Positions 15,067-33,395 of a stretch of 64,000 nucleotides of DNA are shown here, in pieces. A model generated the notes under the pieces. The model made no database searches and was not told where the DNA came from. It was given only the letters and a program-made list of their open reading frames with translations. Position 1 is the first letter of the stretch, and every line of letters starts with the position of its first letter. Source of the stretch: Bradyrhizobium murdochi (GTDB lineage: Bacteria; Pseudomonadota; Alphaproteobacteria; Rhizobiales; Xanthobacteraceae). Made by a program: the position numbers and the translations under genes. The stretch covers positions 62,269-126,268 of the forward strand of contig NZ_AXAU01000003.1 of NCBI RefSeq assembly GCF_000472965.1, in the 5' to 3' direction.

Positions 15067-16107
15067 CTAGTAATTACTTGCCGTCGCCTCGTTCGGGATA
15101 CCATCGATCGGGCATTCGTCGGTGCCGACGGTCGAGCGCGTCATCGCTTCGACCATCTCACGCGTCCCTTCGGGGTCGGCGATCCACTTCGCATAGAAAT
15201 CGTAGGGACAGGCCGCGAGGCCGCGCGCGCCTTCGCCGGAATTGATCATGCCGGTATAGCCGCGGTGCAGCAGCTTGAAGAGATGGTTCTGCGACTGGCC
15301 GTTGCGGCGCGCGTCGCGGATCAGGCTCTTCGACAATCCCGCGTACTGAATGCCGTATTCCTCCTCGCCTGTCTCGCCGAGTGTGCGGCCGTCGAAGCCG
15401 ATGATCGCGGAATGGCCGAAATAGGAATAGACGCCGTCAAAGCCTGCAGCGTTGGCGACCGCGACATAGACATTGTTGGCCCAGGCCATCGCCTTGGAAA
15501 TCAGGATCTGCTGTTCCTTGGCTGGATACATGTAGCCTTGGCAGCGCACGATCAGCTCGGCGCCCTTCATGGCGCAGTCGCGCCAGATCTCCGGAAAGTT
15601 GCCGTCGTCGCAGATGATCAGGCTGACCTTCAGGCCCTTGGGGCCTTCGGAAACATAGGTGCAATTGCCTGGGTACCAGCCTTCGATTGGCACCCACGGC
15701 ATGATCTTGCGGTATTTCTGGACGATCTCGCCCTTGTCGTTCATCAGGATCAAGGTGTTGTACGGCGCCTTGTGCGGGTGCTCCTCGTGCCGCTCGCCGG
15801 TCAGCGAGAACACGCCCCAGACTTTTGCCTTGCGGCACGCTTCGGCAAAGATTTCCGTCTCGTCACCCGGAATCGACGACGCGGTCTCGTACATCTCCTT
15901 GGAGTCGTACATGATGCCGTGGGTGGAATATTCCGGGAAGATCACGAGATCCATGCCCGGCAGACCGAGCTTCATGCCGACGATCATGTCGGCGATCTTG
16001 CGGGCGTTGTCGAGCACCTCGGCCTTGGTGTGCAGACGCGGCATTTTGTAATTGACGACGGCGACGCCGACCGTGTCGTTGCTGGAAGATATGTCACCGT
16101 GAAGCAT
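15067..16107 (-). CDS. amiE: Aliphatic amidase
   Basis: A nitrilase-superfamily amidase of exactly 346 aa, the classic AmiE length. It hydrolyses short aliphatic amides to ammonia and a carboxylic acid. The catalytic triad falls at the reference positions: Glu59 (FPEYSTHG), Lys134 (YRKIMPW) and Cys166 ([11 protein letters not shown]). The ATG has AGAGG 8 bases upstream. It is the last gene of the minus-strand amide operon, after fmdB and fmdA. Its presence beside the uptake genes indicates that imported amides are used as a nitrogen source. Expected to be cytoplasmic and oligomeric. Confidence 0.95.
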
Positions 16108-16150: not shown

Positions 16151-16498
16151 TCAGTGGCTGATCATCCACGGGCGCGCGGTTGGAAAGCCCTTGGCGCCGC
16201 TCTTGGTCTTGGTCATGAGCCGAGCCGGCTTCTTCTTTCCGGTTGAACAGCAGCCACAGCCGGGACCGTGCAAAGCCTTGTATTCCGCTGATGTCTTCGG
16301 CGCATGGGCGCTGCGCTCGTTAGTGGCGATCGCCTTGCGCTTTTCTGATGGCATGCAGAAGAACGCCGGTGCGGTCAGGATCACGCGCGGCGATTCATTT
16401 TCGCAATTCGGACAGTCCTGCGGGTCGTCGCATTCGGCCATAGGCCGCATGTCCGTGAACGGGCCGCAGTCGTTGCAGAGATATTCGTAGACGGGCAT
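16151..16498 (-). CDS. fmdB: FmdB-type zinc ribbon protein
   Basis: A 115-aa protein with an N-terminal zinc ribbon: [12 protein letters not shown] supplies Cys8 and Cys11, and CPNC supplies Cys29 and Cys32. A low-complexity basic tail has another Cys group ([13 protein letters not shown]). FmdB proteins accompany formamidase genes and are thought to be regulatory, though this is not well established. The start is fixed by GAGG 7 bases upstream. It lies 91 bp after fmdA and 43 bp before amiE, on the same strand. Confidence 0.88.
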
Positions 16499-16589
16499 CT
16501 GGTTTCCTCGCGATGTTTCCTTGTAGCTTCGCGACGGATGCGGGGCGGCGTGACACGCGGCGCCGTCCCGCACCCTTCCCGCGCGGGAA

Positions 16590-17819
16590 TCACTTGTCCG
16601 GCGAGATCGGCATCTGGATGTCGCCCTTGATGTGTTTGATCGGTCCGGCCGACGACGGCATGATGTCGAAGTCGAATATCTCGGTCGGCAGCCACAGCGT
16701 GGCGCAGGCGTTGGGCACGTCGACGACGCCTGAGATGTGGCCCTGGCACGGCGCGGTGCCGAGGATCGAATAGGCCTGCGCGCCGGAATAGCCGAACTTC
16801 TTAAGATACTCGATCGCGTTCAAACATGCCTGGCGATAAGCGATGTGAACGTCGAGGTAATGCTGCTTGCCGGCCTCGTCCACCGAGATGCCCTCGAAGA
16901 TCAGATAATCCTTGTAGTTCGGCGTGATCGGCGATGGCTTGAACACGGGATTCTTGATGCCGTATTTGGCAACGCCGTCCTTGATGACATCGACCTTCAG
17001 ATGCAGCCAGCCGGCCATTTCGATTGCGCCGCAGAAAGTGATCTCGCCGTCGCCCTGGCTGAAGTGCAAATCGCCCATCGACAGCCCGCCGCCCGGCACA
17101 TAGACCGGGAAAAAGATCTTCGAACCGCGCGACAGATCCTTGATGTCGCAATTGCCGCCATGCTCGCGCGGCGGCACGGTGCGGGCGCCTTCGGCACCAA
17201 CCTTGGCCTTGGCATCGCCCTTGGCGCGGCCGGCATGCGCGGTCGCGGCGAACGGTGGATTGGCAAGGCCTGGCACGCGCGTCGGATTGGTCGCTATCAG
17301 CGCGGTCTCGCGCTCGTTCCAGGTCGCCAGCAATTTCGGATCGGGCAGACAACCGATCAGGCCGGGATGGATTAAGCCAGCAAAATTCACGCCGGGCACG
17401 TGGCGCGACGAGGTGTAGAGACCCTTGATGTCCCAGATCGATTTCTGGGCCAGCGGGAAATGGTCGGTCAGGAAGCCGCCGCCGTTCTGCTTGGAGAAGA
17501 AGCCGTTAAAACCCCACAGGCTTTCCTTCAGGGGGCCGACATCGAGCAGGTCGACTACGAGCAAATCGCCGGGCTCGGCGCCCTTGACGCCGATCGGACC
17601 GGACAGGAAGTGCACGATTGACAGGTCGATGTCGCGCACGTCATCGGCGGAATCGTTGTTCTTGATGAAACCGCCGGTCCAGTCATAGGTCTCGATGATG
17701 AAATCGTCGCCCGGATTGACCCACGCCACGATCGGAATATCGGGATGCCAGCGGTTGTGGATCATGTCGTTGTCGTAGGCCGATTTCGAAAGATCGACCT
17801 TGATCAGTGTCTCTGGCAT
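16590..17819 (-). CDS. fmdA: Formamidase / acetamidase
   Basis: A 409-aa member of the FmdA/AmdA family, which hydrolyses formamide (sometimes acetamide) to ammonia and the acid. Characteristic blocks are visible: HNRWHPDIP near the N-terminus, EPGDLLVVDLLDV, HPGLIGCLPD, REHGGNCDIKDL and GGGLSMGDLHFSQGDGE, which together form the metal-containing active site. The ATG has GGGGGAG 6 bases upstream. It sits between urtE and fmdB, within one co-directional operon. It differs from AmiE in fold and mechanism, so the operon carries two independent amide hydrolases. Confidence 0.93.
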   Translation of the reverse strand: MPETLIKVDLSKSAYDNDMIHNRWHPDIPIVAWVNPGDDFIIETYDWTGGFIKNNDSADDVRDIDLSIVHFLSGPIGVKGAEPGDLLVVDLLDVGPLKESLWGFNGFFSKQNGGGFLTDHFPLAQKSIWDIKGLYTSSRHVPGVNFAGLIHPGLIGCLPDPKLLATWNERETALIATNPTRVPGLANPPFAATAHAGRAKGDAKAKVGAEGARTVPPREHGGNCDIKDLSRGSKIFFPVYVPGGGLSMGDLHFSQGDGEITFCGAIEMAGWLHLKVDVIKDGVAKYGIKNPVFKPSPITPNYKDYLIFEGISVDEAGKQHYLDVHIAYRQACLNAIEYLKKFGYSGAQAYSILGTAPCQGHISGVVDVPNACATLWLPTEIFDFDIMPSSAGPIKHIKGDIQMPISPDK

Positions 17820-17857
17820 CGATAGCTCCCCCTTTTTAGACAGCACGGTTTGCGGGT

Positions 17858-18547
17858 TTACACGGACAGGAATTTAGAGACTTGCGCGGCATCGACGCTG
17901 TCGCGTGGCTCGTCGCGGACGATCTCGCCATTCTCGATGACCAGCACGCGGTCGGCGATGTCGAGCGCAAAGCTCAACACCTGTTCGGAGACCACGATCG
18001 AGAGGCCGCGCTCGTCGCGGATGCGCTTCAGGGTGCGCGCCATGTCCTTGATGATCGACGGCTGGATGCCCTCGGTCGGCTCGTCCAGCAGCAGCACTTT
18101 TGGCTTGGTGGCGAGCGCGCGGGCAATTGCGAGCTGCTGCTGCTGTCCGCCGGAGAGATTGCCGCCGCGCCGGCCTTTCATCTCCAGCAGCACCGGGAAC
18201 AATTCGTAGATGTCCTCGGGCACCTCCGAGCCGCCCGACACCACGAGGCCGGTCTCGATATTCTCCCTCACCGTCATGGTGGAAAAGATCATGCGGCCCT
18301 GTGGCACGTAGGCGAGGCCCTTGGCGACACGCTCGTAGCTCGGCAGCGCGCTGAGCTCGGCGCCTGCCATGCTCACCGAGCCGCTCTTGGTCGGCACGAT
18401 GCCCATCAGCGACTTCATCAGCGTGGTCTTGCCCATGCCGTTGCGGCCCATGATCGCGACGATCTCGTTGGGCGCGACCGAGACGTTGAGGCCGTGCAGA
18501 ACTTCGCTTTGGCCGTAGGCGACGTGAAGATCCGAAATAGCTAGCAT
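17858..18547 (-). CDS. urtE: Urea/short-chain amide ABC transporter ATPase UrtE
   Basis: A 229-aa HAAT-type ATPase. Visible motifs are Walker A (GRNGMGKTT), the Q-loop (YVPQGR), the signature NLSGGQQQQLAIARAL and Walker B (LLLDEPTEG). Its partner is UrtD and the membrane subunits are UrtB and UrtC. The ATG has AAGGAG 5 bases upstream. Fusion of this transporter to the amidase operon points to amide or urea as the cargo rather than branched-chain amino acids; this is inference from context. Confidence 0.92.
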   Translation of the reverse strand: MLAISDLHVAYGQSEVLHGLNVSVAPNEIVAIMGRNGMGKTTLMKSLMGIVPTKSGSVSMAGAELSALPSYERVAKGLAYVPQGRMIFSTMTVRENIETGLVVSGGSEVPEDIYELFPVLLEMKGRRGGNLSGGQQQQLAIARALATKPKVLLLDEPTEGIQPSIIKDMARTLKRIRDERGLSIVVSEQVLSFALDIADRVLVIENGEIVRDEPRDSVDAAQVSKFLSV

Positions 18548-18613: not shown

Positions 18614-19352
<739 letters not shown>

Positions 19353-19369
<17 letters not shown>

Positions 19370-19436: not shown

Positions 19437-20582
19437 TCACTCTGCCGGCGCGCCGTCGGCGACCGAATTGCTGGTCCAGTCGCCGGACTTCTTCTTGATC
19501 GAGCTGACCAGGCGATCGATGCGCGACTGGACGTGATCCGCCCAGATGCCCGACAAGCCGTTCGGGAAGGCCAGCACGACCGCGATGAACAGCGCGCCGA
19601 GGCCGAACAACCAGAGCTGCGGGAAGGATTCCGAAAGGCCGGTCTTGGCAAAATTGACCAGCAGCGCACCCCACACCGCGCCGAAGATCGACGTCCGTCC
19701 GCCGACGGCGGTGTAGATCACCATTTCGATCGACGGCACGATGCCTACAAAGGACGGCGACATGAAACCGACATTGAGTGCAAACATGGCGCCCCCTATC
19801 GCGGCGAAGATCGCAGCCATGCAGAAGGCGAAAATCTTGAAATTGGCGACGCTGTAGCCGGAGAAGCGGACGCGATCTTCCTGCTCGCGCATCGCCACCA
19901 GGATGCGGCCAAGCTTTGTCAGCCGGATGAACTGCGCGATAAGGATGCAGCCAAACAGCAGGAACACTTCAAAGAAGTATAAAACGACCTTGGCGTGGTC
20001 CGGCCTGATGTCCCATCCCTTCAGTGTACGCAGGTCGGTCATGCCGTTGATGCCGCCGGTATAACCCTGCTGCCCGACAATCAGAATGGTGAGGATGGCG
20101 GCGACGGCCTGGGTGATGATCGCGAAATAGGTACCGCCGACGCGGCGCTTGAACATTGCCGTGCCGATGATCAGGGCGAAGAGGCCTGGGACCAGGATGA
20201 TGGCGAGAACGGTGAAAGTGAGGCTGTGGAACGGCTGCCAGAACAGCGGCAGCGCGGTGATCTGATTCCAATCCATGAAATCCGGAATGCCGGGCGTGGA
20301 CTGGATCTTGGTGTTCTCGACGCTGGAGGCCTCCAGCTTGAGGAACATCGCCATGCAGTAGCCGCCGAGGCCGAAGAACACGCCCTGCCCCAGACTCAGG
20401 ATGCCGCCATATCCCCAGCACAGCACGAGGCCGATCGCGACAAAGGCGTAAGTCAAATATTTCGCGACCAGATTGAGACGGAACACATCCAGCGACAGCG
20501 GCAGGATCACGAACAGGATCAGGCCCAGTGCAACGAAGCCAATGAGCTCGGATCGATTGAAGAAGCGCGAGTTGATGATCAT
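19437..20582 (-). CDS. urtC: Urea/short-chain amide ABC transporter permease UrtC
   Basis: A 381-aa polytopic permease with 9-10 hydrophobic segments. It has the HAAT-permease block GYGGILSLGQGVFFGLGGYCMAMFL near residue 60 and the EAA-like loop GRILVAMREQEDRVRFSGYSV. The highly charged C-terminus (SSIKKKSGDWTSNS) is cytoplasmic. It forms the channel with UrtB. The start ATG has only a weak Shine-Dalgarno, but the gene lies 18 bp after urtB and may be translated by reinitiation. Confidence 0.92.
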   Translation of the reverse strand: MIINSRFFNRSELIGFVALGLILFVILPLSLDVFRLNLVAKYLTYAFVAIGLVLCWGYGGILSLGQGVFFGLGGYCMAMFLKLEASSVENTKIQSTPGIPDFMDWNQITALPLFWQPFHSLTFTVLAIILVPGLFALIIGTAMFKRRVGGTYFAIITQAVAAILTILIVGQQGYTGGINGMTDLRTLKGWDIRPDHAKVVLYFFEVFLLFGCILIAQFIRLTKLGRILVAMREQEDRVRFSGYSVANFKIFAFCMAAIFAAIGGAMFALNVGFMSPSFVGIVPSIEMVIYTAVGGRTSIFGAVWGALLVNFAKTGLSESFPQLWLFGLGALFIAVVLAFPNGLSGIWADHVQSRIDRLVSSIKKKSGDWTSNSVADGAPAE

Positions 20583-20600: not shown

Positions 20601-21527
20601 TTACTTGCGAACCTTGAGGCTGAAGAGACCCTGGGGCCGCAACATCAGGATTCCGACGACGGCGAGCAACGTGAGAACCTTGGCCATCGAGCCCGACATG
20701 AAGAATTCGAGCGTCGATTGCGTCTGCGAGATCGAGAAGGCCGACGCGATGGTGCCGAGCAGGCTCGCGGCGCCGCCAAACACGACAACCAGGAACGTGT
20801 CGACAATGTAGAGTTGCCCCGAGGTCGGACCGGTCGAGCCGATCATGGTAAAAGCGCTTCCCGCTATCCCGGCGATCCCGCAACCGAGGCCGTAGGTGTA
20901 GCGATCGACTTTTTCGGTATTGATGCCGACGGCGCCGGCCATGATCCGGTTCTGCACGACCGCGCGGACCTGCCGTCCCCAGCGCGACTTGTAAATGACG
21001 TAAGCGACCGCGCACGTGATCGAAACGGTAAGACCCATCACGAAGATGCCGTTGATCGGCACCTCGATGCTGTCGGTCACCTTGAGCGAACCCAGCATCC
21101 ACTGCGGTAGCTCGACGCCGACCTCGCGCGCCCCGAAGACGGAGCGGTAGGCCTGCTGCAGTATGAGGCTGAGGCCCCATGTGGCGAGCAGGGTGTCGAG
21201 CGGGCGCTTGTAGAGGTGCCGGATCAGCACCCACTCCACCAGCATTCCGAGCGCGCCGGAGGCGAGGAACGCCAGCATCATCGCGAGAAAGAAATAGCCG
21301 CTGAAAAGACCCGGCAGATAGCTCTGGAACAGATTCGACGTCATCCAGGTGACGTAGGCCCCTAAGATCATGAACTCGCCATGCGCCATGTTGATGACGC
21401 CCATCTGGCCGAAGATGATGGCAAGGCCGAGCGCCATCAGCACGTAGACGGAGAACAGGATCAGGCCCGCAAAACCCTGCATGACGAAGATGGAGCCAAG
21501 ATCGCCAATCGAATAGTCGCCAAACAT
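20601..21527 (-). CDS. urtB: Urea/short-chain amide ABC transporter permease UrtB
   Basis: A 308-aa membrane protein with eight or so hydrophobic segments. It has the LivH-type N-terminus (ALGLAIIFGQMGVINMAHGEFMILGAY) and the cytoplasmic loop RAVVQNRIMAGAVGINTEKVDR, typical of UrtB. The ATG has GGAGAA 5 bases upstream. It lies downstream of urtA across a 122-bp gap that contains two stem-loops, which may let urtA be made in excess over the membrane subunits. Confidence 0.92.
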   Translation of the reverse strand: MFGDYSIGDLGSIFVMQGFAGLILFSVYVLMALGLAIIFGQMGVINMAHGEFMILGAYVTWMTSNLFQSYLPGLFSGYFFLAMMLAFLASGALGMLVEWVLIRHLYKRPLDTLLATWGLSLILQQAYRSVFGAREVGVELPQWMLGSLKVTDSIEVPINGIFVMGLTVSITCAVAYVIYKSRWGRQVRAVVQNRIMAGAVGINTEKVDRYTYGLGCGIAGIAGSAFTMIGSTGPTSGQLYIVDTFLVVVFGGAASLLGTIASAFSISQTQSTLEFFMSGSMAKVLTLLAVVGILMLRPQGLFSLKVRK

Positions 21528-21649: not shown

Positions 21650-22909
21650 TTATTGGTAGCCCTTCGGGAACGGATCGGGCTCGATCAGATCCGCGGTCTC
21701 GAAGATCAGCTCGAACTGGCCATCGAGCTTGGCGCGCCCGACGCGGGTCTTCGACCAGAGGTGATGGTTTTCATGGATGCGCACGTAGCCTTCGGGCGCC
21801 TCCTTGAATTCCACGCCGGGCGAAGCGGCCGCGATCTTGTCGACGTCGAAGCTACCGGCCTTCTCGCAGGTCAGCTTCCACAGCCACGGGCCGAGATAGC
21901 CGGCTTGCGTCACGTCGCCGATCACGGTCTTCTCGCCCCACATCTTCTTGAAGGCGGGAACGAACGTCTTGTTGTTGGCATTGTCGAGCGACTGGAAGTA
22001 CTTCATGCAGGCATAGGCGCCCGCGATATTCTCGCCGCCGATGCCGTCGATTTCATCTTCGGTCACCGAAATCGTCAGCAGCGCCTGCTTCGACAGGTCG
22101 ACGCCGGCCGCCTTGAGCTGCTTGTAGAAGGCGACGTTCGAGCCGCCGACCACGTCGGTGAAGATGACGTCGGGCTTGGTCAGCTTGATCTTGTTGATCA
22201 CCGAATTGAACTGGGTGCTGCCGAGCGCGTAATATTCCTCGCCGACGACCTTGCCCTTCAGTACGTTCTCGACGTGCTTGCGCGCGATCTTGTTTGAGGT
22301 GCGCGGCCAGATGTAGTCCGAGCCGATGAAAAAGAACGATTTGGCGCCCTTCTCCTTGGCGATCCAGTTCAGGCCGGCGAGGATCTGCTGGGTTGCTTCC
22401 TGGCCGGTATAAATGACGTTCTTGGACTGCTCGAGACCTTCATAGAAGGTCGGATAGTACAGCATGCCATTGTACTGCTCGACCACCGGCAGCACCGCCT
22501 TGCGCGATGCCGAGGTCCAGCAGCCCATGATCGCTGCGACCTTGTCGTTGACGAGAAGCTTCTTGGCCTTTTCCGCAAAGGTCGGCCAGTCGCTGGCGCC
22601 GTCTTCCTGGATGAACTTGATCTTGCGCCCGAGCACGCCGCCGGCGGCGTTGATCTGTTCGATCGCGAGCTTTTCGGCCTGTATCGAGCCCGTCTCCGAG
22701 ATCGCCATCGTGCCGGTGGCCGAGTGCAGGATGCCGACGGTGACCTCCGTATCGGTGACCGCGAGCCCCGTTGTGTTGACGGTGGCGGTTGCGGGACCTG
22801 CCCCGAATGAGGGCCGAGGAAGGATCGAAACGAGCGGCAGCGCCGCCGCGCCCATCAGCAGTTTGCGGCGAAGCGGAGACCGCAGTCCCTTGTTTGGTTC
22901 GTCTGACAT
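21650..22909 (-). CDS. urtA: Urea/short-chain amide ABC transporter substrate-binding protein UrtA
   Basis: A periplasmic binding protein of 419 aa with a twin-arginine-like leader (SPLRRKLLMGAAALPLVSIL), suggesting Tat export. The mature part has the class I fold and the ligand-pocket region TVGILHSATGTMAISETGSIQAE that is characteristic of UrtA/AmiC-type urea and amide binders. The second ATG (22909) is preferred, since it gives the normal charged n-region. It opens the eight-gene operon reading to amiE and is divergent from the hybrid kinase across a 169-bp control region. Confidence 0.93.
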   Translation of the reverse strand: MSDEPNKGLRSPLRRKLLMGAAALPLVSILPRPSFGAGPATATVNTTGLAVTDTEVTVGILHSATGTMAISETGSIQAEKLAIEQINAAGGVLGRKIKFIQEDGASDWPTFAEKAKKLLVNDKVAAIMGCWTSASRKAVLPVVEQYNGMLYYPTFYEGLEQSKNVIYTGQEATQQILAGLNWIAKEKGAKSFFFIGSDYIWPRTSNKIARKHVENVLKGKVVGEEYYALGSTQFNSVINKIKLTKPDVIFTDVVGGSNVAFYKQLKAAGVDLSKQALLTISVTEDEIDGIGGENIAGAYACMKYFQSLDNANNKTFVPAFKKMWGEKTVIGDVTQAGYLGPWLWKLTCEKAGSFDVDKIAAASPGVEFKEAPEGYVRIHENHHLWSKTRVGRAKLDGQFELIFETADLIEPDPFPKGYQ

Positions 22910-22963
22910 GAGCACCCCATTTTGTTCGAGAACGCTTATTGGTCAGGCGAGGATTGCCCAGAA

Positions 22964-22978
22964 TTGTGCACCGCACAG
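22964..22978. promoter_or_regulatory. Inverted repeat in the urtA/kinase control region, site 1
   Basis: TTGTGC, 3 bases, GCACAG. Eleven of twelve arm bases are palindromic. The core TGCACCGCA recurs at site 2, 32 bp away (about three helical turns). Candidate binding site for the neighbouring LuxR-type regulator or a nitrogen regulator. Confidence 0.5.
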
Positions 22979-22997
22979 ATACGTGGGATTGCGTATA

Positions 22998-23008
22998 TTG
23001 CACCGCAA
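22998..23008. promoter_or_regulatory. Inverted repeat in the urtA/kinase control region, site 2
   Basis: TTGC, 3 bases, GCAA, sharing the 9-bp core TGCACCGCA with site 1. It lies about 17 bases upstream of the sigma-54 -24 element of the kinase gene. Confidence 0.45.
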
Positions 23009-23023
23009 AATAGCGACGTAGAT

Positions 23024-23040
23024 TTGGTACGGAGTTTGCT
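23024..23040 (+). promoter_or_regulatory. Sigma-54 (RpoN) promoter of the hybrid kinase gene
   Basis: TTGGTACGGAGTTTGCT matches TTGGYACN5TTGCW, with the invariant GG and GC separated by exactly 10 bases. Transcription would start near 23051, 28 bases before the GTG start. It implies control by a nitrogen-type enhancer-binding protein. Confidence 0.65.
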
Positions 23041-23078
23041 GGGCCAAGCGGGTCAGTCGAACTGGGCAGGAGCAGCAA

Positions 23079-26000
23079 GTGGCAGGGCGGCAGCGGATAG
23101 ACCGCGTCAGGCGCCAATATAACCAATGGGTCGCCAATCAGACGCTGGAAGACTACGCGCTGCGCTTCACCGCCAAGAGCGCCCGGCGGTGGTCTGCCGC
23201 CCGCGTCGCCAATACCGCGCTCGGCGCGATTTCCTTTCTTGCGCTGGAGGCGATCGGCGGCACCATTACGCTCAATTACGGCGCGGCCAACGCCACATCA
23301 GCCATTCTTGTCGTCAGCGTCATCATCTTCCTCTGCGGCCTGCCGATTGCCTATCATGCCGCAAAATGTGGCATCGACATTGATCTGCTGACCCGCGGCG
23401 CCGGCTTCGGCTATATCGGCTCCACCATCACCTCGCTGATCTACGCCTCCTTCACCTTCATCTTTTTCGCTATCGAGGCAGTTATCATGGCCGCGGCGCT
23501 CGAGATGTGCTTCGGCATCCCGCGCCCGATCGGCTATCTCATCAGCGCCGTCGTCATCATTCCCTTGGTGACCTACGGCATCACCCTGATCAGCCGCTTT
23601 CAATTGTGGACGCAGCCGCTCTGGATTGTCCTGCACATCCTCCCTTTCGTTGCGATTGCCTACGCCAATCCCCACTCGTTCGCTGAATGGCGGAAGTTCG
23701 CCGGCGAACACGGCAACGCCGGCGGTCATCTCGATCTGCTGCTGTTCGGCACCGCTGCCTCGGTGGTGTTTTCGCTTGTTGCGCAGATCGGCGAGCAGGT
23801 CGACTTCCTGCGGTTTCTGCCGCGCGATCGCCGGACCTCGCGAATGTCGTGGTGGATCGCGCTGCTCAGCGCCGGCCCCGGCTGGATCATTTTCGGCGCG
23901 CTCAAGCTGCTCCTGGGCTCGTTTCTCGCCTACTTCGCGCTGAGCCATGGCGTCGCCAGCGAGCAAGCCGCCGAGCCTGCGCACATGTATCTCGAAGCCT
24001 TCCGCTACGTGCTGTCCCAGCCCGATCTGGCGCTGGCGCTGACCGGCACCTTCGTCATTCTCTCGCAGATCAAGATCAACGTGACCAACGCCTATGCCGG
24101 CTCGATCGCCTGGTCGAACTTCTTCTCGCGGCTGACCCACAGCCATCCCGGCCGTGTGGTGTGGCTCGTCTTCAACGTTCTGGTAGCGCTGCTGTTGATG
24201 GAAATCGGCGTCTACAAGGCGCTCGAGCAGACGTTGGCGCTTTATTCCAACGTGGCGATTGCCTGGGTCGGCGCGCTGGTTGCCGATCTCGTCGTCAACA
24301 AGCCGCTTGGCTTGCGCCCGCAGCACATCGAGTTCAAACGCGCGCATCTCTGCGATATCAACCCGGTCGGCGTCGGCGCGATGACGATCGCGACCATTGT
24401 CTCGATCTCTGCCTTTTACGGCCTGTTCGGCCCGACAGCGAAGGCGCTCTCCGCCTTCGTGGCGCTCGCAGTTGCCTTCGTCACCGCGCCCCTGATCGCC
24501 TGGGTGACCGACGGCAAGTATTACATCGCGCGCAAGCCGAAGCGGAGCTGGCAGAACCTCGAATCGATCCAGTGCTGCATCTGCGAGCACTCGTTCGAGC
24601 CGGAGGACATGGCCTCCTGCCCGGCCTATGCCGGCCCGATCTGTTCGCTGTGCTGCTCGCTCGATGCCCGCTGCCATGATCTCTGCAAGCCGCATGCGCG
24701 CGCCGGCGCTCAGGTCTCGGACATGCTCGGAAAGCTGTTGCCGGAGACGATTTATGCTCGGATTAATTCGCAGTTCGGGCACTATCTCGGCGTGTTTGCG
24801 GTCTCCGCGGGGCTGGTCGGGCTGACGCTGGGACTGATCTATCTGCAGACCTCGGCGGCAATACCCGTCGAAAATTTTGCGCTGTCGGAGGTACTGTGGA
24901 AGGTGTTCTTCGCGCTCACCATCATCATCGGCGTGGTGGCATGGTTGTTCGTGCTGGCGCAACAGAGTCGCCGCGCGGCGGAAGCGGAGACGCGGCGGCA
25001 GACCGCGCTCCTGATCCAGGAGATCGACGCGCATAAGCGCACCGACGCCGAACTGCAGCGCGCCAAGGAAGTCGCGGAATCGGCAAACCTTGCCAAGAGC
25101 CGTTACGTGGTGGGATTGAGCCATGAACTGCGCTCACCGCTGAACGCCATCAGCGGCTATGCGCAATTGCTGGAGCAGGATTCCAACCTCCCCGCCAAGC
25201 CCCGCGACCAAGTGCGCGTGGTCCGGCGCAGCGCCGACCATTTGTCGGGACTGATCGACGGCATCCTCGATATCTCCAAAATCGAAGCAGGCCGGCTTTA
25301 CCTGTCGCGCGACGAGGTCCGCCTGAGCGAATTTCTCGATCAGCTCGTCGGCATGTTTCGCGTTCAGGCCGCCGCCAAGGGTATCGACTTCATCTTCAAG
25401 CGGCCTTCGGTGCTGCCGCTCGTCGTCTATGCCGATGAGAAGCGGCTGCGGCAGGTTCTGATCAACCTGCTGTCGAATGCACTGAAGTTCACGCAGACCG
25501 GAAACGTGCAGTTCGTCGTGCACTACCGCAGCCCCGTTGCGGAGTTCGAGGTGATCGATACCGGGCCCGGCATTCAGCCGAACGACCTCGAACGTATCTT
25601 CGCACCCTTTGAGCGCGGCGCGCTCGGCGTCTCGCAGCCGCAGACCGGCACCGGGCTTGGGCTGACCATCAGCCGCCTCCTGGCGGGCGTGATGGGTGGC
25701 GACATCAAAGTGACCAGCCAAGTCGGCAACGGCAGCACGTTTCGGGTGAAAATCCTGCTGTCGGAAGTCACGAATCCGACGCGGATCGCGCCGGTGGAGG
25801 CGCCGATCTTCGGCTATCACGGCCCCCGCAAGACGATCCTGATCACCGACGACGATCCGACCCACCGCGATCTCCTGCGCGAGGTGCTGACGCCGCTCGG
25901 CTTCATTCTGCTCAGCGCGCCCGATGGCCCCGGCTGTCTCGCGCTGGCGCAGCATTGCCGGCCGGATCTGTTCCTGCTCGACATCTCGATGGCCGGCATG

Positions 26001-26450
26001 GATGGCTGGACGGTGGCGGAAACGCTGCGCGCAAATGGCCATCACCAGGCGCGTATCCTGATGGTGTCGGCGAGCGCGCTTGAAGCGCATGGCGCGCCGC
26101 TGGCGCAACCGTTCCACGACGGCTACCTGATGAAGCCGATCGATATTCCCAAGCTGCTCGAAACCATCCGGCAATTGCTCAAGCTCGAATGGCAGTATGA
26201 GGCAGGCGATGTCCCTGCCCCGCATTGGAGGCCGGAGACCGGCTCACGGCCGCCAGTGAAACATGTCGAGGAACTGATCGGGCTCGGGCAACTGGGCTAC
26301 GTCCGCGCGATCCAGGTCAAGCTCGACGAGATCGGAAATGGCTACCCCGAACATGCCGACTTCGTGTCGCAAATGCGTGCCTTGATCGACCGCTTCGATC
26401 TCGATCAGTACATGGCGACCCTGAAAGCCCTGCACAGCTATGATTATTGA
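23079..26450 (+). CDS. Hybrid histidine kinase with an NCS1-permease sensor half and cysteine-rich linker
   Basis: An 1123-aa multi-domain protein. Residues about 1-480 form an NCS1-type (cytosine/purine/allantoin family) permease with about 12 hydrophobic segments and the family-like block GIDIDLLTRGAGFGYIGS. Residues 499-536 hold nine Cys (CCIC, then CSLCC, then RCHDLC), a probable zinc-binding or redox module. Two more membrane segments follow (about 570-590, 607-627) and then a coiled linker. HisKA has His682 in SHELRSPLNAISGYAQLL. The HATPase has LLSNALKF and TGTGLGLTISRLL. A receiver domain has Asp968 and Lys1019, and the last 60 residues are Hpt-like in size but lack a clear Hpt His motif. 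The GTG start has AGGAG 6 bases upstream. It is divergent from urtA and overlaps the response regulator gene by 11 bp, so it probably senses an amide or related nitrogen compound. The closest concept is CbrA, which uses an SLC5 rather than an NCS1 domain. Confidence 0.85.
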   Translation: MAGRQRIDRVRRQYNQWVANQTLEDYALRFTAKSARRWSAARVANTALGAISFLALEAIGGTITLNYGAANATSAILVVSVIIFLCGLPIAYHAAKCGIDIDLLTRGAGFGYIGSTITSLIYASFTFIFFAIEAVIMAAALEMCFGIPRPIGYLISAVVIIPLVTYGITLISRFQLWTQPLWIVLHILPFVAIAYANPHSFAEWRKFAGEHGNAGGHLDLLLFGTAASVVFSLVAQIGEQVDFLRFLPRDRRTSRMSWWIALLSAGPGWIIFGALKLLLGSFLAYFALSHGVASEQAAEPAHMYLEAFRYVLSQPDLALALTGTFVILSQIKINVTNAYAGSIAWSNFFSRLTHSHPGRVVWLVFNVLVALLLMEIGVYKALEQTLALYSNVAIAWVGALVADLVVNKPLGLRPQHIEFKRAHLCDINPVGVGAMTIATIVSISAFYGLFGPTAKALSAFVALAVAFVTAPLIAWVTDGKYYIARKPKRSWQNLESIQCCICEHSFEPEDMASCPAYAGPICSLCCSLDARCHDLCKPHARAGAQVSDMLGKLLPETIYARINSQFGHYLGVFAVSAGLVGLTLGLIYLQTSAAIPVENFALSEVLWKVFFALTIIIGVVAWLFVLAQQSRRAAEAETRRQTALLIQEIDAHKRTDAELQRAKEVAESANLAKSRYVVGLSHELRSPLNAISGYAQLLEQDSNLPAKPRDQVRVVRRSADHLSGLIDGILDISKIEAGRLYLSRDEVRLSEFLDQLVGMFRVQAAAKGIDFIFKRPSVLPLVVYADEKRLRQVLINLLSNALKFTQTGNVQFVVHYRSPVAEFEVIDTGPGIQPNDLERIFAPFERGALGVSQPQTGTGLGLTISRLLAGVMGGDIKVTSQVGNGSTFRVKILLSEVTNPTRIAPVEAPIFGYHGPRKTILITDDDPTHRDLLREVLTPLGFILLSAPDGPGCLALAQHCRPDLFLLDISMAGMDGWTVAETLRANGHHQARILMVSASALEAHGAPLAQPFHDGYLMKPIDIPKLLETIRQLLKLEWQYEAGDVPAPHWRPETGSRPPVKHVEELIGLGQLGYVRAIQVKLDEIGNGYPEHADFVSQMRALIDRFDLDQYMATLKALHSYDY

Positions 26451-27369
26451 ACCAAAAAAGCGCGACGTCGCCCTCGTCGTCGACGACTCGCCTGAGACGC
26501 TGCGGCTATTGACCGATGCGCTCGACGGCGCGGGCATGACCGTCATGGTCGCGCTCGATGGTGCTTCCGCCATGCGGATCGTCGACCAGATCACGCCCGA
26601 TATCGTGCTGCTCGACGCTGTGATGCCGGGGATGGATGGGTTCGAGACCTGCAGGCGGCTGAAGCGCGACGCCGGGCTCGACCATGTTCCGATCATCTTC
26701 ATGACGGGGCTGGCCGAAACCGAACACATCGTGCGCGGGCTGGAGGCCGGCGGCGTCGACTATGTGACAAAACCGATCGCGGTCGAGGAGATGCTGGCGC
26801 GCATCCGCGTCCATCTCGCCAATGCCCGCCTGACCCAGAGCGCGCGCGCCGCGCTCGACGTCTCCGGCCGCTATCTGCTCGCCGTGAATGCCGCGGGCAA
26901 GATCATGTGGGCGACACCGCAGGCGCAGAAGCTGCTCTCCGAATCGCTCGCCGCCGACGGTGACGATAACGTTGTGCTGCCCGAGCCGATTCCGCAATGG
27001 CTCGATGAGGCACGCAGGGGTAAAGCCGCGGCGAAGGCCGCGGCTATGCCGACGCGTCACGGCAACGAGCAGCTTCGCCTGCAATATATGGGGAAGCTCG
27101 GCGCGAACGAATTCCTGCTGCGGCTGGCGAAAGATTCCGGCGCGGAAGCGCCAGTGGAATTCTCCAGCGAGTTGGGGCTGACGACGCGCGAGGGCGAAGT
27201 GCTGTCATGGCTGTCGAAGGGCAAGACCAATCGCGATATCGCGCAGATTCTAGGACTCTCCCCGCGCACCGTCGACAAGCACCTCGAGCAGATCTATTCC
27301 AAGCTCGGCGTCGAGAACCGCACCGCCGCGGCGGCAATCGCGGTGAATGCGAAGAACAGGAGGGGGTGA
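26440..27369 (+). CDS. Response regulator with receiver and LuxR-type DNA-binding domain
   Basis: A 309-aa regulator. The receiver domain has DD at residues 15-16, the phospho-acceptor Asp59 in DIVLLDAVMPGMDG and Lys in YVTKPIAVEE. A middle segment (residues about 130-235, DVSGRYLLAVNAAGKIMWAT) looks like a reduced PAS domain. The C-terminus is a LuxR helix-turn-helix (LTTREGEVLSWLSKGKTNRD ... SPRTVDKHLEQIYSKLGVENRT). Its start overlaps the kinase gene by 11 bp, so the two form a pair. It is the obvious candidate to bind the inverted repeats before urtA and turn on amide uptake. Confidence 0.9.
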   Translation: MIIEPKKRDVALVVDDSPETLRLLTDALDGAGMTVMVALDGASAMRIVDQITPDIVLLDAVMPGMDGFETCRRLKRDAGLDHVPIIFMTGLAETEHIVRGLEAGGVDYVTKPIAVEEMLARIRVHLANARLTQSARAALDVSGRYLLAVNAAGKIMWATPQAQKLLSESLAADGDDNVVLPEPIPQWLDEARRGKAAAKAAAMPTRHGNEQLRLQYMGKLGANEFLLRLAKDSGAEAPVEFSSELGLTTREGEVLSWLSKGKTNRDIAQILGLSPRTVDKHLEQIYSKLGVENRTAAAAIAVNAKNRRG

Positions 27370-27649: not shown

Positions 27650-30355
27650 TCAATGCTTCGCCGCTAGCTTCCGCTGTTCGGCATCGCTCGGCGCCATCTG
27701 CGCGATCAGCCGCTTCATTTCAGGAATGCAGGAGCCGCAATTGGTGCCGGCTTTCAGCTTCGTCCCGATATCGGCTGCCGAACGCGCACCCGCTGCGATG
27801 GCCTCGCAAATCGTGTTGCGGCCGACACCGAAGCAGGCGCAGACGATCGGGCCGGCGTTGGCGAGGCCGTCGGCCGATTTGCCCGACAGCAGCATGCGGC
27901 GCTGGTCGTGGTTCAGCGTGTCCGCGGCAAACAGGTCCTTGACCACGTTCCAGTCTCCGGCGTCGCGCGCCGGGCCGATGAACAGGCAGGTGTCGATACG
28001 GTCGCCGTCAAAAGATGCGGCGCGATAGACGCCGCCGCCAAAGTCCTTGTACTCGGCGAGATCGTCGCGCGCGATGGATTTCAGCCAGGATTGCCAGCTT
28101 GCGACATCGGCATTGTCGGCGAACAGGTAGCCATGGCCGCCGTTGACGGCAACGCGCACCACCCAGGCATGCGCGGGCAGTTCGAGTGGCTTGCGCGATA
28201 GTGCGAAGCCGCGGAAGACGTATTCGTACGGCACAATCGAGGCCGGCGTCGCCTTGTTCTCGGGCTGGCCCGAGAACGGATCGGTGACGGGCGCTACCAG
28301 CGAGCCGACGCGCGCGCCGGTCGCATTGGCCCCGCTCCAGTGGATCGGCGCGAACAGCATACCGCGCTGCTGGCGTTCGCTGACGATGACGCGGAGCGTG
28401 CATTGCCCGTAATCAGTGGTGACCCGCGCGAAATCGCCGTCGGCGACGCCGTATTTTGCGGCATCGTCAGGATGGACTTCGACGAACGGCTCCGACAGAT
28501 GCTGGCCGAGCCGCGGGCTCATCCCCGTGCGCGTCATGGTGTGCCACTGGTCGCGGATGCGCCCGGTGTTGAGCCGCAAGGGCCGTGCCGCGCTGGTCTC
28601 GGTCCGCAGCGCCGGCATCTCCGGCGCGATGAAACGGGCTCTGAAATCGTTGGCAAAGAACCCGCCTTCGGCGAAGAAGCGCGCTTGCGGCTCGGTCCCC
28701 TGCCGGACCGGCCATTGCACCGGCGCCATTGCATCGAAATCGCTGTCCGACAGCGACTGCAGCGCGCCGATATCGAAGTCGCGCGCGCCCACGTTCTCGA
28801 AGGCCGAGAGCGCGGCGTGCTCGCGAAAAATATCCGCCGCCGAGGTGAAGCTGAAGGCCGCGCCGAAGCCAAGGCGCCTGGCGACTTCGCCCATGATCCA
28901 CCAATCGGGCTTGGCCTCTCCCGGCGCGGGAAGAAACGCGCGCTGCCGCGAGATGCGCCGTTCCGAGTTGGTCACCGTGCCGGATTTCTCGCCCCAGGCC
29001 TGCGCCGGCAGCAGCACATGCGCGCCCGCGTCCACCGTGTCGTTCGAGATCACGTTCTCGGAAATCACGAACAGCTCGAGCTTTTTCAGGGCTTCGCGAA
29101 CACCGTCCGCGTTCGGCAGCGACACGGCCGGATTGGTGCCCATCACCCACAATGCCTTGATCTCGCCGCGCGCAATGGCCTCGAACATCTGCACCGCCTT
29201 CAGGCCCTCATGGATAGCAATGCGCGGCGCCTTCCAGAACCGCCGCACGCGATCGATATCTGGCGGCGTGAATCCCATATGGGCGGCGAGCTGGTTGGCG
29301 AGCCCGCCGACCTCGCGGCCGCCCATCGCGTTGGGCTGCCCGGTCAGCGAGAACGGCGACGCACCCGGCAGGCCGATCCGCCCGGTCGCGAGGTGGCAAT
29401 TGAGGATGGCGTTGACCTTGTCGGTGCCCTGCGCCGATTGATTGACGCCCTGCGAATAGAGGGTGACCACGCGCGGCGTACTGGCAAACATCCGGAAGAA
29501 TGTTGCGACGTCCTGCTCGGACAGGCCTGTCGCCAGCGCCGTCGCGCCGACGCTGCCGGTGATGCTGCGTGCGCGGGCGATGGCATCGTCGAATCCGGTG
29601 GTGTGGAGTTCGATGTAGTCGCGGTCGAGTACGCCGTTGTCCGCGAGGTAAACCAGCAACCCGCTGAATAGCGCCGTATCCGTGCCCGGCCTCAATCCCA
29701 GGAACAGATCGTCGTCGCCGACAGTGTCGGTCCGGCGCGGGTCGATCACGACGATGCGCGCGCCGCGCTTCTGCTTGTTGGCGATCATGCGCTGGTACAG
29801 CACCGGATGGCACCAGGCCGCGTTGGAGCCGACCAGCACCAAGAGGTCGGCCTCGTCGAGGTCCTCGTAACACCCCGGCACGGTGTCGGCGCCAAAAGCG
29901 CGGCGGTGGCCGGCCACGGACGAGGCCATGCACAGCCGCGAATTGGTGTCGACATTGGCGCTGCCGACAAAGCCCTTCATCAGCTTGTTGGCGACGTAGT
30001 AGTCCTCCGTTAGCAACTGGCCGGAAAGATAGAACGCGACCGCGCCCGGACCGTCGCGCGCGATGATGTGCTGAAACCTGTGCGCGACATGGTCGAGCGC
30101 GTCGCTCCAGGCGACCCGCTCCATGGTTCCTTTGCCGCAACGGATCATCGGATAGAGCAGCCGGTTCGTCAGCCCGAGCGTCTCGCCAAGCGCCGAGCCC
30201 TTCGAGCACAGCCGGCCGAAATTGGCGGGATGATCAGGGTCGCCCGAGATCGCCGCCCCGCCCCGCCCGTCCGGCGTCGCCAGAATGCCGCAGCCGACGC
30301 CGCAATAGGCGCAGGTGGTTTTGACAGCACGGAGATCGGGATCAACGACCGTCAT
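27650..30355 (-). CDS. nasA: Assimilatory nitrate reductase catalytic subunit with C-terminal Bfd domain
   Basis: A 901-aa molybdopterin oxidoreductase that reduces nitrate to nitrite in the cytoplasm. The N-terminal [4Fe-4S] ligands are Cys15, Cys18, Cys22 and Cys50 (CAYCGVGC ... RLCSKGS). The molybdopterin domains contain NRLLYPMIR, SGQLLTEDYYVANK and LLPAQAWGEKSGTVTNSERR, and the C-terminal cofactor domain contains RLNTGRIRDQWHTMTRTG. The last 60 residues add a Bfd-like [2Fe-2S] module (CACFGVGRNTICEAI ... GTNCGSCIPEM), usual in proteobacterial NasA. It is last in the nrt operon, 13 bp after the FAD reductase that probably delivers electrons. Confidence 0.93.
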   Translation of the reverse strand: MTVVDPDLRAVKTTCAYCGVGCGILATPDGRGGAAISGDPDHPANFGRLCSKGSALGETLGLTNRLLYPMIRCGKGTMERVAWSDALDHVAHRFQHIIARDGPGAVAFYLSGQLLTEDYYVANKLMKGFVGSANVDTNSRLCMASSVAGHRRAFGADTVPGCYEDLDEADLLVLVGSNAAWCHPVLYQRMIANKQKRGARIVVIDPRRTDTVGDDDLFLGLRPGTDTALFSGLLVYLADNGVLDRDYIELHTTGFDDAIARARSITGSVGATALATGLSEQDVATFFRMFASTPRVVTLYSQGVNQSAQGTDKVNAILNCHLATGRIGLPGASPFSLTGQPNAMGGREVGGLANQLAAHMGFTPPDIDRVRRFWKAPRIAIHEGLKAVQMFEAIARGEIKALWVMGTNPAVSLPNADGVREALKKLELFVISENVISNDTVDAGAHVLLPAQAWGEKSGTVTNSERRISRQRAFLPAPGEAKPDWWIMGEVARRLGFGAAFSFTSAADIFREHAALSAFENVGARDFDIGALQSLSDSDFDAMAPVQWPVRQGTEPQARFFAEGGFFANDFRARFIAPEMPALRTETSAARPLRLNTGRIRDQWHTMTRTGMSPRLGQHLSEPFVEVHPDDAAKYGVADGDFARVTTDYGQCTLRVIVSERQQRGMLFAPIHWSGANATGARVGSLVAPVTDPFSGQPENKATPASIVPYEYVFRGFALSRKPLELPAHAWVVRVAVNGGHGYLFADNADVASWQSWLKSIARDDLAEYKDFGGGVYRAASFDGDRIDTCLFIGPARDAGDWNVVKDLFAADTLNHDQRRMLLSGKSADGLANAGPIVCACFGVGRNTICEAIAAGARSAADIGTKLKAGTNCGSCIPEMKRLIAQMAPSDAEQRKLAAKH

Positions 30356-30368
30356 GCAAGCAACCGGA

Positions 30369-31586
30369 TCATGCGGCTTCCGACCGTGTCGCGAGCGAGC
30401 GGCCGAACATCATATCGGCGCGAATTCGGGCCGTCGGCTGACGCGTGCGGATCAATTCGAGATACCAGAGCGCGTCGGCGACATCGCCGATCAGAACTGC
30501 GCCGGTCAATCGCCCATCCGCGATTACGAGCTTCTTGTAAGTGCCGTGGTTGATGTCGGAGAGCACGATCGCCTCGCTGCCGTCGCCGCCCATAAAATCG
30601 CCGGCGGAGAACACGCTGACGCCGGAAACTTTCAGATTGGTCGCAACGATGCTTCCGCTGTACGACGCTTCATGCCCGGCGAGATGCCGCGCCAGCACCC
30701 TCGCCTGCTCATAGGCCGGCTCGACCAGGCCGTAGCAGACGCCGCGATGCTCGGCGCACTCGCCGATGGCGAATACGTCGGGTGCGCCGGTCCGCAGGTG
30801 ATCGTCGACCACGATGCCGCGGTTGACGGGGATACCGGCTTCCCTGGCGAGCGCGATGTTCGGACGAATGCCCGCGGCAAAGATCACGGCGTCGGATTCA
30901 AGCCGGCGTCCGTCCGCCAGTTCGACGCCTTCAACCCGCGTCTCGCCATGAATGCTCGCGGTATTGGCGCTAAGCAGGATCTCGATGCCCTTGCTCTCGA
31001 CGAGGGATCTTAATAGCGCAGCCGCAGGCGCATCTAACTGTCGCTCCATCAGGCGGTCCATCAGATGTACCAGCGTCACCGGCGCGCCGGCCTTGGCGAG
31101 GCCATAAGCCGCCTCGAGACCCAGCAATCCACCGCCGATCACGACGACACGCTTCTTCTGCGCTGCCAGCGTCAACAGCAAGTCGACGTCGCGGCTGTCG
31201 CGAAACGTGTGCACGCCGGCGAGATCGGCGCCGGGTACATTCAGCCGCAGCGGCGACGAGCCGGTGGTCAGCACCAGTTTCGAGAACGGAATGCTCTCGT
31301 CGTTCTCGATCTTGAGTTCGCGGCGACCGACATCAATCTCGATCGCCACGCAACCATACTTCAGGGTGACGCCGCGGTCGCGCCACCAGGACGCCGGCCG
31401 CAGCTCTATGTCCTGCGAAGTGGTTTCGCCGGCCAGCACCGATGACAACAGCACGCGATTATAGGCAAGCCGCGGTTCGTCGCCGATCACGGCGATGGCG
31501 TAGCGGCCCAACGCCACCTTGGCGAGTTCATCGACCAGACGGGCGGCGGCCATGCCGTTGCCGACGATGACAAGCGGTTCGCTCAT
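30369..31586 (-). CDS. NAD(P)H/FAD oxidoreductase, probable electron donor to NasA
   Basis: A 405-aa flavoprotein with a first FAD-binding Rossmann motif (VIVGNGMAAARLVDEL), a second nucleotide-binding motif (VVVIGGGLLGLEAAYGLAKAG) and the third FAD contact DVFAIGECAEHRG. It resembles the N-terminal half of NirB and the NasB diaphorase. With no other redox partner in the operon, it is the likely route from NAD(P)H to the Bfd domain of NasA. The C-terminal third (FSAGDFMGGDGSEAIVLSD) is the NirB-like dimer domain. No NirB sirohaem domain and no nirD is present, so nitrite reductase must be encoded elsewhere. Confidence 0.85.
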   Translation of the reverse strand: MSEPLVIVGNGMAAARLVDELAKVALGRYAIAVIGDEPRLAYNRVLLSSVLAGETTSQDIELRPASWWRDRGVTLKYGCVAIEIDVGRRELKIENDESIPFSKLVLTTGSSPLRLNVPGADLAGVHTFRDSRDVDLLLTLAAQKKRVVVIGGGLLGLEAAYGLAKAGAPVTLVHLMDRLMERQLDAPAAALLRSLVESKGIEILLSANTASIHGETRVEGVELADGRRLESDAVIFAAGIRPNIALAREAGIPVNRGIVVDDHLRTGAPDVFAIGECAEHRGVCYGLVEPAYEQARVLARHLAGHEASYSGSIVATNLKVSGVSVFSAGDFMGGDGSEAIVLSDINHGTYKKLVIADGRLTGAVLIGDVADALWYLELIRTRQPTARIRADMMFGRSLATRSEAA

Positions 31587-31619
31587 GGCACGTCCTCACC
31601 TAGCCGCTTTCGTATGGAC

Positions 31620-32414
31620 CTACGCCGCCTCGACGAAGCGATGCCGCTCGTAGAGGAATTCGAGCACGCGCTGCCGGCACTTGAGGTAGCCAGGGTTGGT
31701 CGCGAGCTCGAGCCGCTTGCGCGGACGCGCCAAAGGCACTTCCAGCACCTCTCCGATCCGCGCGCTCGGGCCGTTGGTCATCATCACGATGCGGTCCGAC
31801 AGCAGCACGGCCTCGTCGACGTCGTGCGTGATCATCAGGATGGTGTTGCCGAGCTTCTGGTGCAGCGCCATCACCGAGTCCTGCAGGTGCGCACGTGTCA
31901 GCGCGTCAAGCGCGCCGAACGGCTCGTCGAGCAAAAGCACTTTCGGCTCCATCGCCAGCGCACGGGCAATGCCGACGCGCTGCTTCATGCCACCTGAAAT
32001 CTCCGACGGGCGCTTGTCCTTGGCGTGCGCCATCTGCACCAAATTGAGATTGTGCATCACCCAGGCGTCGCGCTCGGCGCGGCTCTTGGTCGACGAAAAC
32101 ACCTTGTCGACGCCGAGCTTGACGTTTTCGTACACCGTCAGCCACGGCAGCAGGCTGTGGTTCTGGAAAACCACCGCGCGATCCGGTCCCGGTGAATTGA
32201 CCTCGCGGTTCTCCAGCAGCACGCCACCATTTGTGGCGCCGGTGAGGCCGGCGACGATATTGAGCAGCGTGGACTTGCCACAGCCGGAATGGCCGATGAT
32301 CGAGACATATTCGCCCTTCGCGATGGTCAGGCTGATGTCCTTCAGCACTTCCGTCGTGGCATTGCCGCGGGTGAACGTCTTGTCGATATGGTCGAGCTTC
32401 AGATAGGCGTGCAT
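31620..32414 (-). CDS. nrtD: Nitrate ABC transporter ATP-binding protein
   Basis: A 264-aa ATPase with Walker A (GHSGCGKSTLL), the signature EISGGMKQRVGIARAL, Walker B (LLLDEPFGALDAL) and the H-loop ITHDVDEAV. This is the NitT/TauT type that serves nitrate, taurine and sulfonate importers. The start ATG has AAGGA 8 bases upstream; the long open frame in front of it is part of nrtB. It lacks the NrtA-like C-terminal domain of cyanobacterial NrtC, so it is NrtD-like. It lies between nrtB and the flavoprotein. Confidence 0.9.
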   Translation of the reverse strand: MHAYLKLDHIDKTFTRGNATTEVLKDISLTIAKGEYVSIIGHSGCGKSTLLNIVAGLTGATNGGVLLENREVNSPGPDRAVVFQNHSLLPWLTVYENVKLGVDKVFSSTKSRAERDAWVMHNLNLVQMAHAKDKRPSEISGGMKQRVGIARALAMEPKVLLLDEPFGALDALTRAHLQDSVMALHQKLGNTILMITHDVDEAVLLSDRIVMMTNGPSARIGEVLEVPLARPRKRLELATNPGYLKCRQRVLEFLYERHRFVEAA

Positions 32415-32425
32415 GACTTGATCCT

Positions 32426-33334: not shown

Positions 33335-33395
33335 TGAAAATGCATCTCCGTGTTCAATGAGCGGGCCGCCCGCACCGCGCGCGGCCCGGGCTTGA

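Follow-up and report, generated by a model that had tools for sequence, protein, structure and literature searches.

A widespread NCS1-like permease fused to a hybrid histidine kinase, a probable sensor of urea and short amides in Pseudomonadota

Histidine kinases fused to a transporter domain are already known. Described examples include the SLC5/STAC kinases CbrA, CrbS and RpuS together with Ks-Amt5, in which a transporter domain has likewise become the histidine-kinase sensor for a small nitrogen compound (PMC5764959). Genes for formamide and urea use have been described in Methylophilus, where the cluster fmdCABDEF combines a formamidase with an amide/urea ABC transporter and is formamide- and urea-inducible; the account of it names a putative positive regulator within the cluster and no two-component system. 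Here we describe a permease-fused hybrid histidine kinase, termed a transceptor, and its partner response regulator from a 64,000-nt stretch of Bradyrhizobium murdochi DNA (contig NZ_AXAU01000003.1, positions 62,269–126,268), referred to throughout as the window and serving as the basis of all coordinates. The pair is divergent from a urtABCDE-fmdAB-amiE operon. From sequence comparison we consider it likely that an NCS1-type permease has been turned into the sensor of a hybrid kinase, forming a urea/short-amide transceptor whose regulator binds a palindrome. This reading starts from the architecture of the kinase, the NCS1 fold of its permease half, the presence of urea/amide genes beside nearly every locus, three or more forced changes of partner operon and a conserved palindrome.

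Like the SLC5/STAC kinases, the window protein joins a LeuT-fold transporter to a kinase, and CrbS is a hybrid kinase too. In contrast to them its transporter half is NCS1-like, a cysteine (Cys) module and two extra helices stand in place of a recognised STAC domain, and the associated genes concern urea and amides instead of acetate, histidine or pyruvate. The LuxR-type partner of CrbS is reported to need an inverted repeat, which compares with a conserved palindrome and a GerE-containing regulator here, and RpuS/R is reported to regulate a transporter gene. Ks-Amt5 has the Amt fold and was studied in one organism, whereas the present family has an NCS1-like fold and is widespread.

The kinase frame starts with GTG at 23079; it is open from 23022 onwards and has no other start codon ahead of residue 30. 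It encodes, in order, a 12-helix permease, the Cys module, two helices and a hybrid kinase, and overlaps the regulator frame on the same strand by 11 bp. A previous reading made from the sequence only had described these two frames with their overlap, His682 and Asp968, a nine-Cys module (499–536) and two further membrane segments. Each was found in its place: His682 within SHELR, Asp968 within LLDIS, the cysteines at 499, 500, 502, 514, 522, 525, 526, 532 and 536, and the segments by hydropathy at about 566–597 and 599–631. HisKA, HATPase_c and receiver domains with conserved His and Asp make the protein a hybrid histidine kinase, while Response_reg plus GerE place its partner in the NarL/LuxR type; in Pfam, nothing matched the kinase ahead of residue 673. 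The divergent operon is equally real, with UrtA, UrtB, FmdA and the aliphatic amidase all matching NCBIfam models. B. murdochi possesses a single transceptor, and the architecture is more than a chance fusion, being conserved across at least 80 GTDB loci and the 57 loci of an even draw.

A scan of GTDB returned at least 583 confirmed relatives, from which 80 named loci were kept. The even draw comprised 398 Pseudomonadota genomes; 57 had some match, 52 of them true transceptors at a total of 57 loci, and the other five (G127, G250, G292, G344 and G352) gave fragments or other proteins and were excluded. Stretches of up to 20 kb per locus (about 5 kb for the window's own genus) were searched by tblastn for UrtA, FmdA, amidase and urease proteins. 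Loci L119 and L129–L148 were dropped from the neighbourhood counts as shorter duplicates of refetched loci, a same-family survey (37/60) was kept out of them, and L197–L201, which have no transceptor match over half of the query, and the stand-alone permease L196 lie outside the 57. The two sets overlap, since L081 and L127, and likewise L032 and L128, have contigs of equal length. At least one urea/amide gene adjoins the transceptor at 55 of the 57 loci, window included. Thirty-eight of these carry fmdA, urtA of the window's kind, or both (fmd type); the other 17 carry urease, a urease-type urtA, or both (urea type), and their genes were identified by UrtA/UrtB and urease gamma models in L182 and elsewhere by similarity to L182 or UreC. 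The two loci without such genes are both on cut contigs: L193 is a contig of 4.8 kb, and L127 is a 3.8-kb locus lying at the end of its contig. In the named set 79 of 80 loci adjoin urtA, fmdA, amiE or urease, and the sole miss, L081, lies at the end of apparently the same contig as L127. Among 20-kb stretches taken from arbitrary places on the same contigs of 20 of the same genomes, none carried such genes (0/20). The tie to urt/fmd genes on which the sequence-only reading had staked its proposal is therefore nearly universal, and extends to urease. Because the pair lies beside urea/formamide-use genes in nearly every genome examined, it is probably the sensor system that switches these nitrogen genes on, and the 'nitrogen compound' which that reading had the permease sense or import can be narrowed to urea and short amides.

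The partner operon has changed repeatedly, and the linkage is therefore more than a single arrangement passed on intact: when 68 permease domains are placed on a maximum-likelihood tree, no fewer than three changes on well-supported branches are required by the urea-type rows. Besides urt-fmd, the settings include urt-urease, urease alone, fmdA alone (L191 and L192) and, in some loci, replacement of urt by a stand-alone permease. Where urease stands alone, the pair either closes an operon made up of ureC with its accessory genes (L176, L186 and L188; accessory names given by eye) or is divergent from ureA (L184, L187, L189, L194 and L195). In L191 (7146–10956) a non-hybrid transceptor adjoins fmdA, without urt, and is followed by a receiver-kinase protein; a frame of similar length adjoins fmdA in L192. 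On a Klebsiella plasmid (L218, 11001–15264) the kinase-regulator pair adjoins urtABCDE-amiF, and relatives of the permease half occur in 342 Klebsiella plasmid records. Such variation bears on the idea that general nitrogen status is what the pair controls, its proximity to urea genes being inherited synteny. The window pair does also adjoin nitrate-assimilation-like genes; against this, the partner operon varies on the supported tree (although one gain plus two losses may account for the three changes) and the palindrome described below persists in two of these newer settings, so that we regard this explanation as very unlikely.

The sequence-only reading had called the N-terminal half an NCS1-type permease. 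This is borne out by the fold and by intermediate sequences, on which the assignment rests because no Pfam or NCBIfam family matched; the PF02133 profile gave no match to the window protein, to 14 family members or, at E≤10, to anything in the B. murdochi genome, and it is the last of these which indicates that Pfam is blind to this branch of NCS1. A fold model built from 14 sequences retrieved Mhp1 and CodB as its top four Foldseek matches (E 6.4e-7 to 2.5e-6), and in VIA-align CodB led with Z 28.5 over 389 residues at 3.9 Å, followed by ApcT (Z 25.1) and Mhp1 (Z up to 25.0). CHT1, the best SLC5 chain listed, reached Z 22.6 against the 28.5 of CodB, and stepwise sequence relatives likewise lead to NCS1, not to SLC5 (SSS); the absence of an SLC5 match in Pfam carries no weight of its own, because Pfam misses NCS1 here too. 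Two relatives bridge the gap: the stand-alone permease L196 (28% identity; PF02133 36 bits) and L199 (21% identity; PF02133 81 bits; CodB E 1.5e-31), both of which share the FG..GS, D..R and N.Y..S positions with the window permease. A tblastn search with the window protein itself matches a sequence annotated as a cytosine permease (24%, E 4e-10), and a profile with intermediates matches CodB at 9e-17, a result partly built in since L199 was included. Several points weigh against the assignment. The permease half found no family in Pfam, NCBIfam or PDB sequences, a few chance-level rows aside; a profile built on the family alone found no PDB chain; confidence in the fold model is middling (pLDDT 67.4, pTM 0.67); and ApcT scores level with Mhp1. 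The NCS1-like fold holds as a modelled fold, and the rival that the search might have turned up, an unrelated membrane family, did not arise.

The permease half shares with Mhp1 and CodB both the fold and the FG..GS motif, yet falls below PF02133 detection. In a profile alignment, as we read it, Mhp1 W117 and N318 correspond to F129 and N337, whereas E133 replaces Q121, and K332/I333 replace S312/T313. We presume that the Mhp1 residues concerned have roles in ligand and sodium binding; if so, sodium coupling is doubtful because a lysine (K332) occupies a sodium position. The candidate pocket E133, K332 and N337 is common to, or replaced like for like in, distant NCS1 relatives; it is no pointer to urea for that reason, and this counts against a urea-specific reading. 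A position distinguishing fmd-type from urease-type specificity was also sought, and only E299/D299 differs by the rule used, so none is claimed.

Seven stand-alone permeases related to the sensor half, 44–55% identical, were chosen by us from 20 of 535 records and from tblastn matches, and five of the seven adjoin urease or fmdA. In Acinetobacter lwoffii the permease precedes ureEFG-hupE-ureDABC, as does a near-identical copy in A. ursingii; in Klebsiella it comes after ureG; and in Moraxella, Tsukamurella and Methylovirgula it adjoins fmdA. The remaining two speak against a urea/amide ligand: in A. baumannii (L222) the permease is divergent from a transceptor with no urea/amide gene in the 20 kb covered, and for Streptomyces (L224) no such neighbour is listed. 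Databases name these proteins hypothetical, cytosine permease or allantoin permease. L223:7956-9563, L221:5950-7557 and L228:6926-8569, which lie in urease or fmdA clusters and bear one or another of these names, are probable urea/amide permeases.

The same architecture might nonetheless sense a heterocycle such as hydantoin, allantoin or cytosine, with the urea genes acting downstream of that pathway. The nearest solved NCS1 structures are indeed hydantoin and cytosine transporters, and a distant relative (31%) adjoins hydantoinase genes. On the other side, 55 of the 57 transceptor loci adjoin urea/amide genes themselves, no hydantoinase or allantoinase is listed in the gene tables around the transceptors or their close stand-alone relatives (the PLSDB tables being incomplete), and an NCS1 protein, MetT, was reported in 2026 to take a linear compound, metformin (PMC13390362). 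We hold a heterocyclic ligand to be improbable and urea or a short amide the better candidate. A second, non-exclusive variant accepts that ligand and supposes that the permease still imports it, so that the transport state, beyond mere binding, sets the kinase, as has been discussed for CbrA. It draws on the permease motifs, largely kept in transceptors and stand-alone relatives alike, and on CbrA, which is reported to have both transport and kinase activities. Yet at seven positions at least 55 of the 57 transceptors share a residue that none of the seven stand-alone relatives has; F53, E57 and A340, in helices that align with Mhp1 TM1 and TM8, belong to these positions, as though transport had been given up for sensing. 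Ks-Amt5 is likewise reported to have lost transport on becoming a sensor (PMC5764959). We give continued import some credence, short of an even chance.

For the Cys module the sequence-only reading had suggested metal or redox sensing, a suggestion now weakened. Eight of the nine cysteines are invariant in all 56 fmd- and urea-type rows; a CxxC...CxxC tail is, however, also present in six of seven kinase-free permease relatives (it is lost in one that adjoins fmdA), and because of this the module looks like a structural, zinc-ribbon-like part that was kept and extended in the kinase, not a dedicated sensor. A special redox sensor was accordingly set aside, the core being common to kinase-free relatives. 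Residues 486–640 had no Pfam or NCBIfam match, and fold-model confidence is low there. On the topology suggested by hydropathy, 12 helices would place the Cys module in the cytosol and the two further ones would return the chain to a cytosolic kinase. A same-family kinase without a permease (L197, 9857–11713) has a Cys-rich start and the helix pair; it adjoins an alcohol-dehydrogenase-like gene (named by eye), and its regulator is convergent.

The gap between urtA and the kinase (about 22912–23078) contains a block conserved from Bradyrhizobium to Enhydrobacter, the core of which is the palindrome TACG-N8-CGTA. Over the 500 bases ahead of the kinase, all spacings of 0–20 were compared at 36 fmd-type and 20 other loci. 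The exact palindrome occurs in 29 of the 36 fmd-type loci and any other spacing in at most one, whereas 300 runs of first-order shuffles averaged 0.11 and peaked at 2/36. Eight of the 36, the window among them, come from the window's genus, and without that genus the count is 21/28. In five of the seven inexact loci a copy is one or two letters off. All 13 named loci under 84% identity carry the palindrome, four of which were in the discovery alignment, as do all three plasmid-collection loci outside the discovery set: the urtA-kinase gap of Klebsiella, the kinase-permease gap of A. baumannii and the fmdA-kinase gap of Methylovirgula. It thus persists in two loci that have a stand-alone permease instead of urt. 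The stricter pattern TACGY-N6-RCGTA has seven matches in the 7.95-Mb B. murdochi genome, compared with 58 for the reversed pattern; one is the window site, five lie within open frames and one between frames. NarL sites have a 7-2-7 arrangement, and the palindrome is 7-2-7-like. We take TACG-N8-CGTA to be the predicted binding site of the regulator, and the activation of the divergent operon proposed in the sequence-only reading is supported in so far as it gains a candidate DNA site.

Certain observations do not favour this role. The palindrome is absent from two of the 36 fmd-type loci (L158 and L166), absent or weak in nine of the 17 urease-type and both fmdA-only loci, and missing from the regulator-permease gap before the Methylovirgula stand-alone permease. 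Weaker versions occur in urease-type loci, eight of 17 at p≤0.03 against their own shuffles, and for kinases that end urease operons the scanned gap is not the operon's promoter; the exact site is present in two of the 20 other loci, L172 and L127 (same genus, cut by a contig end). The exact palindrome lying between two open frames elsewhere in the genome (G000:C14:3414-3429, L213) is downstream of a frame that we take to be FixC-like. In the window, a sigma-54-like site TGGTACGGAGTTTGCT is found upstream of the kinase at 23025–23040 and in most Bradyrhizobium relatives; as a kinase promoter, TGGTACGG..TTTGC was set aside, since among the genera scanned this form appears only in Bradyrhizobium loci, and it is kept as a lead only.

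A further challenge comes from FmdB. The Methylophilus amide/urea cluster is said to encode a putative positive regulator other than the present pair, which weighs against our reading, and the fmdB of the fmd cluster is termed a putative positive regulator in reviews and papers (PMC13209695). An FmdB-type zinc ribbon could thus be the main regulator of the amide operon, leaving the kinase pair to control other things or only its own genes. While the window operon does include an fmdB-like gene, the pair is equally tied to urease loci showing no fmdA and the palindrome sits between urtA and the kinase; that FmdB mainly regulates the operon is, we think, unlikely. FmdB and the pair could act together, and FmdB may share control of the window operon because of the fmdB-like gene there and the regulatory role given to fmdB in the literature.

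Taken as a sensor of urea and short amides, the pair might operate as follows, where the ligand, the direction of regulation, the binding of the regulator to the palindrome, the signal path and any retained transport are all inferred. Urea or a short amide (formamide, acetamide) would bind in the central cavity of the permease and change its conformation; this change would pass through the Cys module and the two extra helices to the kinase at His682, from which phosphate would reach the partner regulator either directly or via the internal receiver Asp968. A dimer of the phosphorylated regulator would then occupy the predicted TACG-N8-CGTA site between the divergent genes and upregulate urtABCDE-fmdAB-amiE transcription, perhaps along with that of its own genes. 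With somewhat less assurance we favour the broader view that an unnamed, widespread class of kinases, derived from an unrecognised urea/amide branch of NCS1, controls urea and formamide use in Pseudomonadota through TACG-N8-CGTA, including on Klebsiella plasmids. The features of the locus are collected in Table 1.

Table 1. Features of the transceptor locus in window coordinates
Feature	Position	Strand	Basis or remark
Aliphatic amidase (amiE)	15067..16107	-	NF009802
fmdB-like zinc-ribbon protein	16151..16573	-	PF09723
fmdA formamidase	16590..17846	-	NF045496
urtE (ATPase type)	17858..18547	-	Pfam
urtD (ATPase type)	18614..19369	-	Pfam
urtC (permease type)	19437..20582	-	Pfam
urtB	20601..21527	-	NCBIfam TIGR03409, above cut-off
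urtA	21650..22915	-	NCBIfam TIGR03407, 529 bits against a cut-off of 493; listed start GTG, ATG 22909 likely
Predicted regulator site, palindrome TACG-N8-CGTA, 16 bp, here TACGTGGGATTGCGTA	22980..22995		urtA-kinase gap
Second conserved block between urtA and the kinase	22999..23021		Alignment
Permease-fused hybrid histidine kinase (transceptor), 1123 aa	23079..26450	+	Open reading frame list, Pfam, residue check
NCS1-like permease domain, residues 1-485	23079..24533	+	Fold model, PDB matches, intermediate sequences
Cys module, residues 499-536	24573..24686	+	Alignment of relatives
Two further membrane segments, residues about 568-631	24780..24971	+	Hydropathy; helices in fold model
HisKA, residues 673-738, His682	25095..25292	+	Pfam, residue check
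HATPase_c, residues 786-894	25434..25760	+	Pfam
Receiver (Response_reg), residues 920-1031, Asp968	25836..26171	+	Pfam, residue check
LuxR/NarL-type response regulator (receiver + GerE), 309 aa	26440..27369	+	Open reading frame list, Pfam

The stretch that follows the regulator (27650–34778) is nitrate-assimilation-like: it encodes a pyridine nucleotide-disulphide oxidoreductase and an NMT1-type binding protein, along with a frame that by eye resembles a molybdopterin oxidoreductase. Elsewhere in the B. murdochi genome, G000:C3:148892-149989 encodes another UrtA that exceeds the NCBIfam cut-off.

Within the known kind of transporter-fused kinases, an NCS1-based, urea/amide-linked class is new. 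In the literature covered, to which most subscription journals do not belong, no title or abstract was recognisable as describing an NCS1-domain kinase that senses urea or amides. A third transporter type beside the SLC5 and Amt domains of the kinases in that literature would show that the NCS1 scaffold can become a sensor and, if our reading is true, that it can serve urea and amides instead of heterocycles. The pair offers a likely sensor for formamide- and urea-inducible operons along with a named, testable operator, and some 'cytosine/allantoin permeases' of urease operons are suggested to be urea/amide permeases. Descriptions of the UTS of Klebsiella ST307 plasmids list UrtABC and AmiF, and the terms 'histidine kinase' and 'two-component' are absent from the main texts compared; on Klebsiella plasmid L218 the pair stands beside urtABCDE-amiF. 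The same pair is carried by Klebsiella plasmids with a urea cluster that those descriptions discuss in relation to the urinary tract, naming no kinase.

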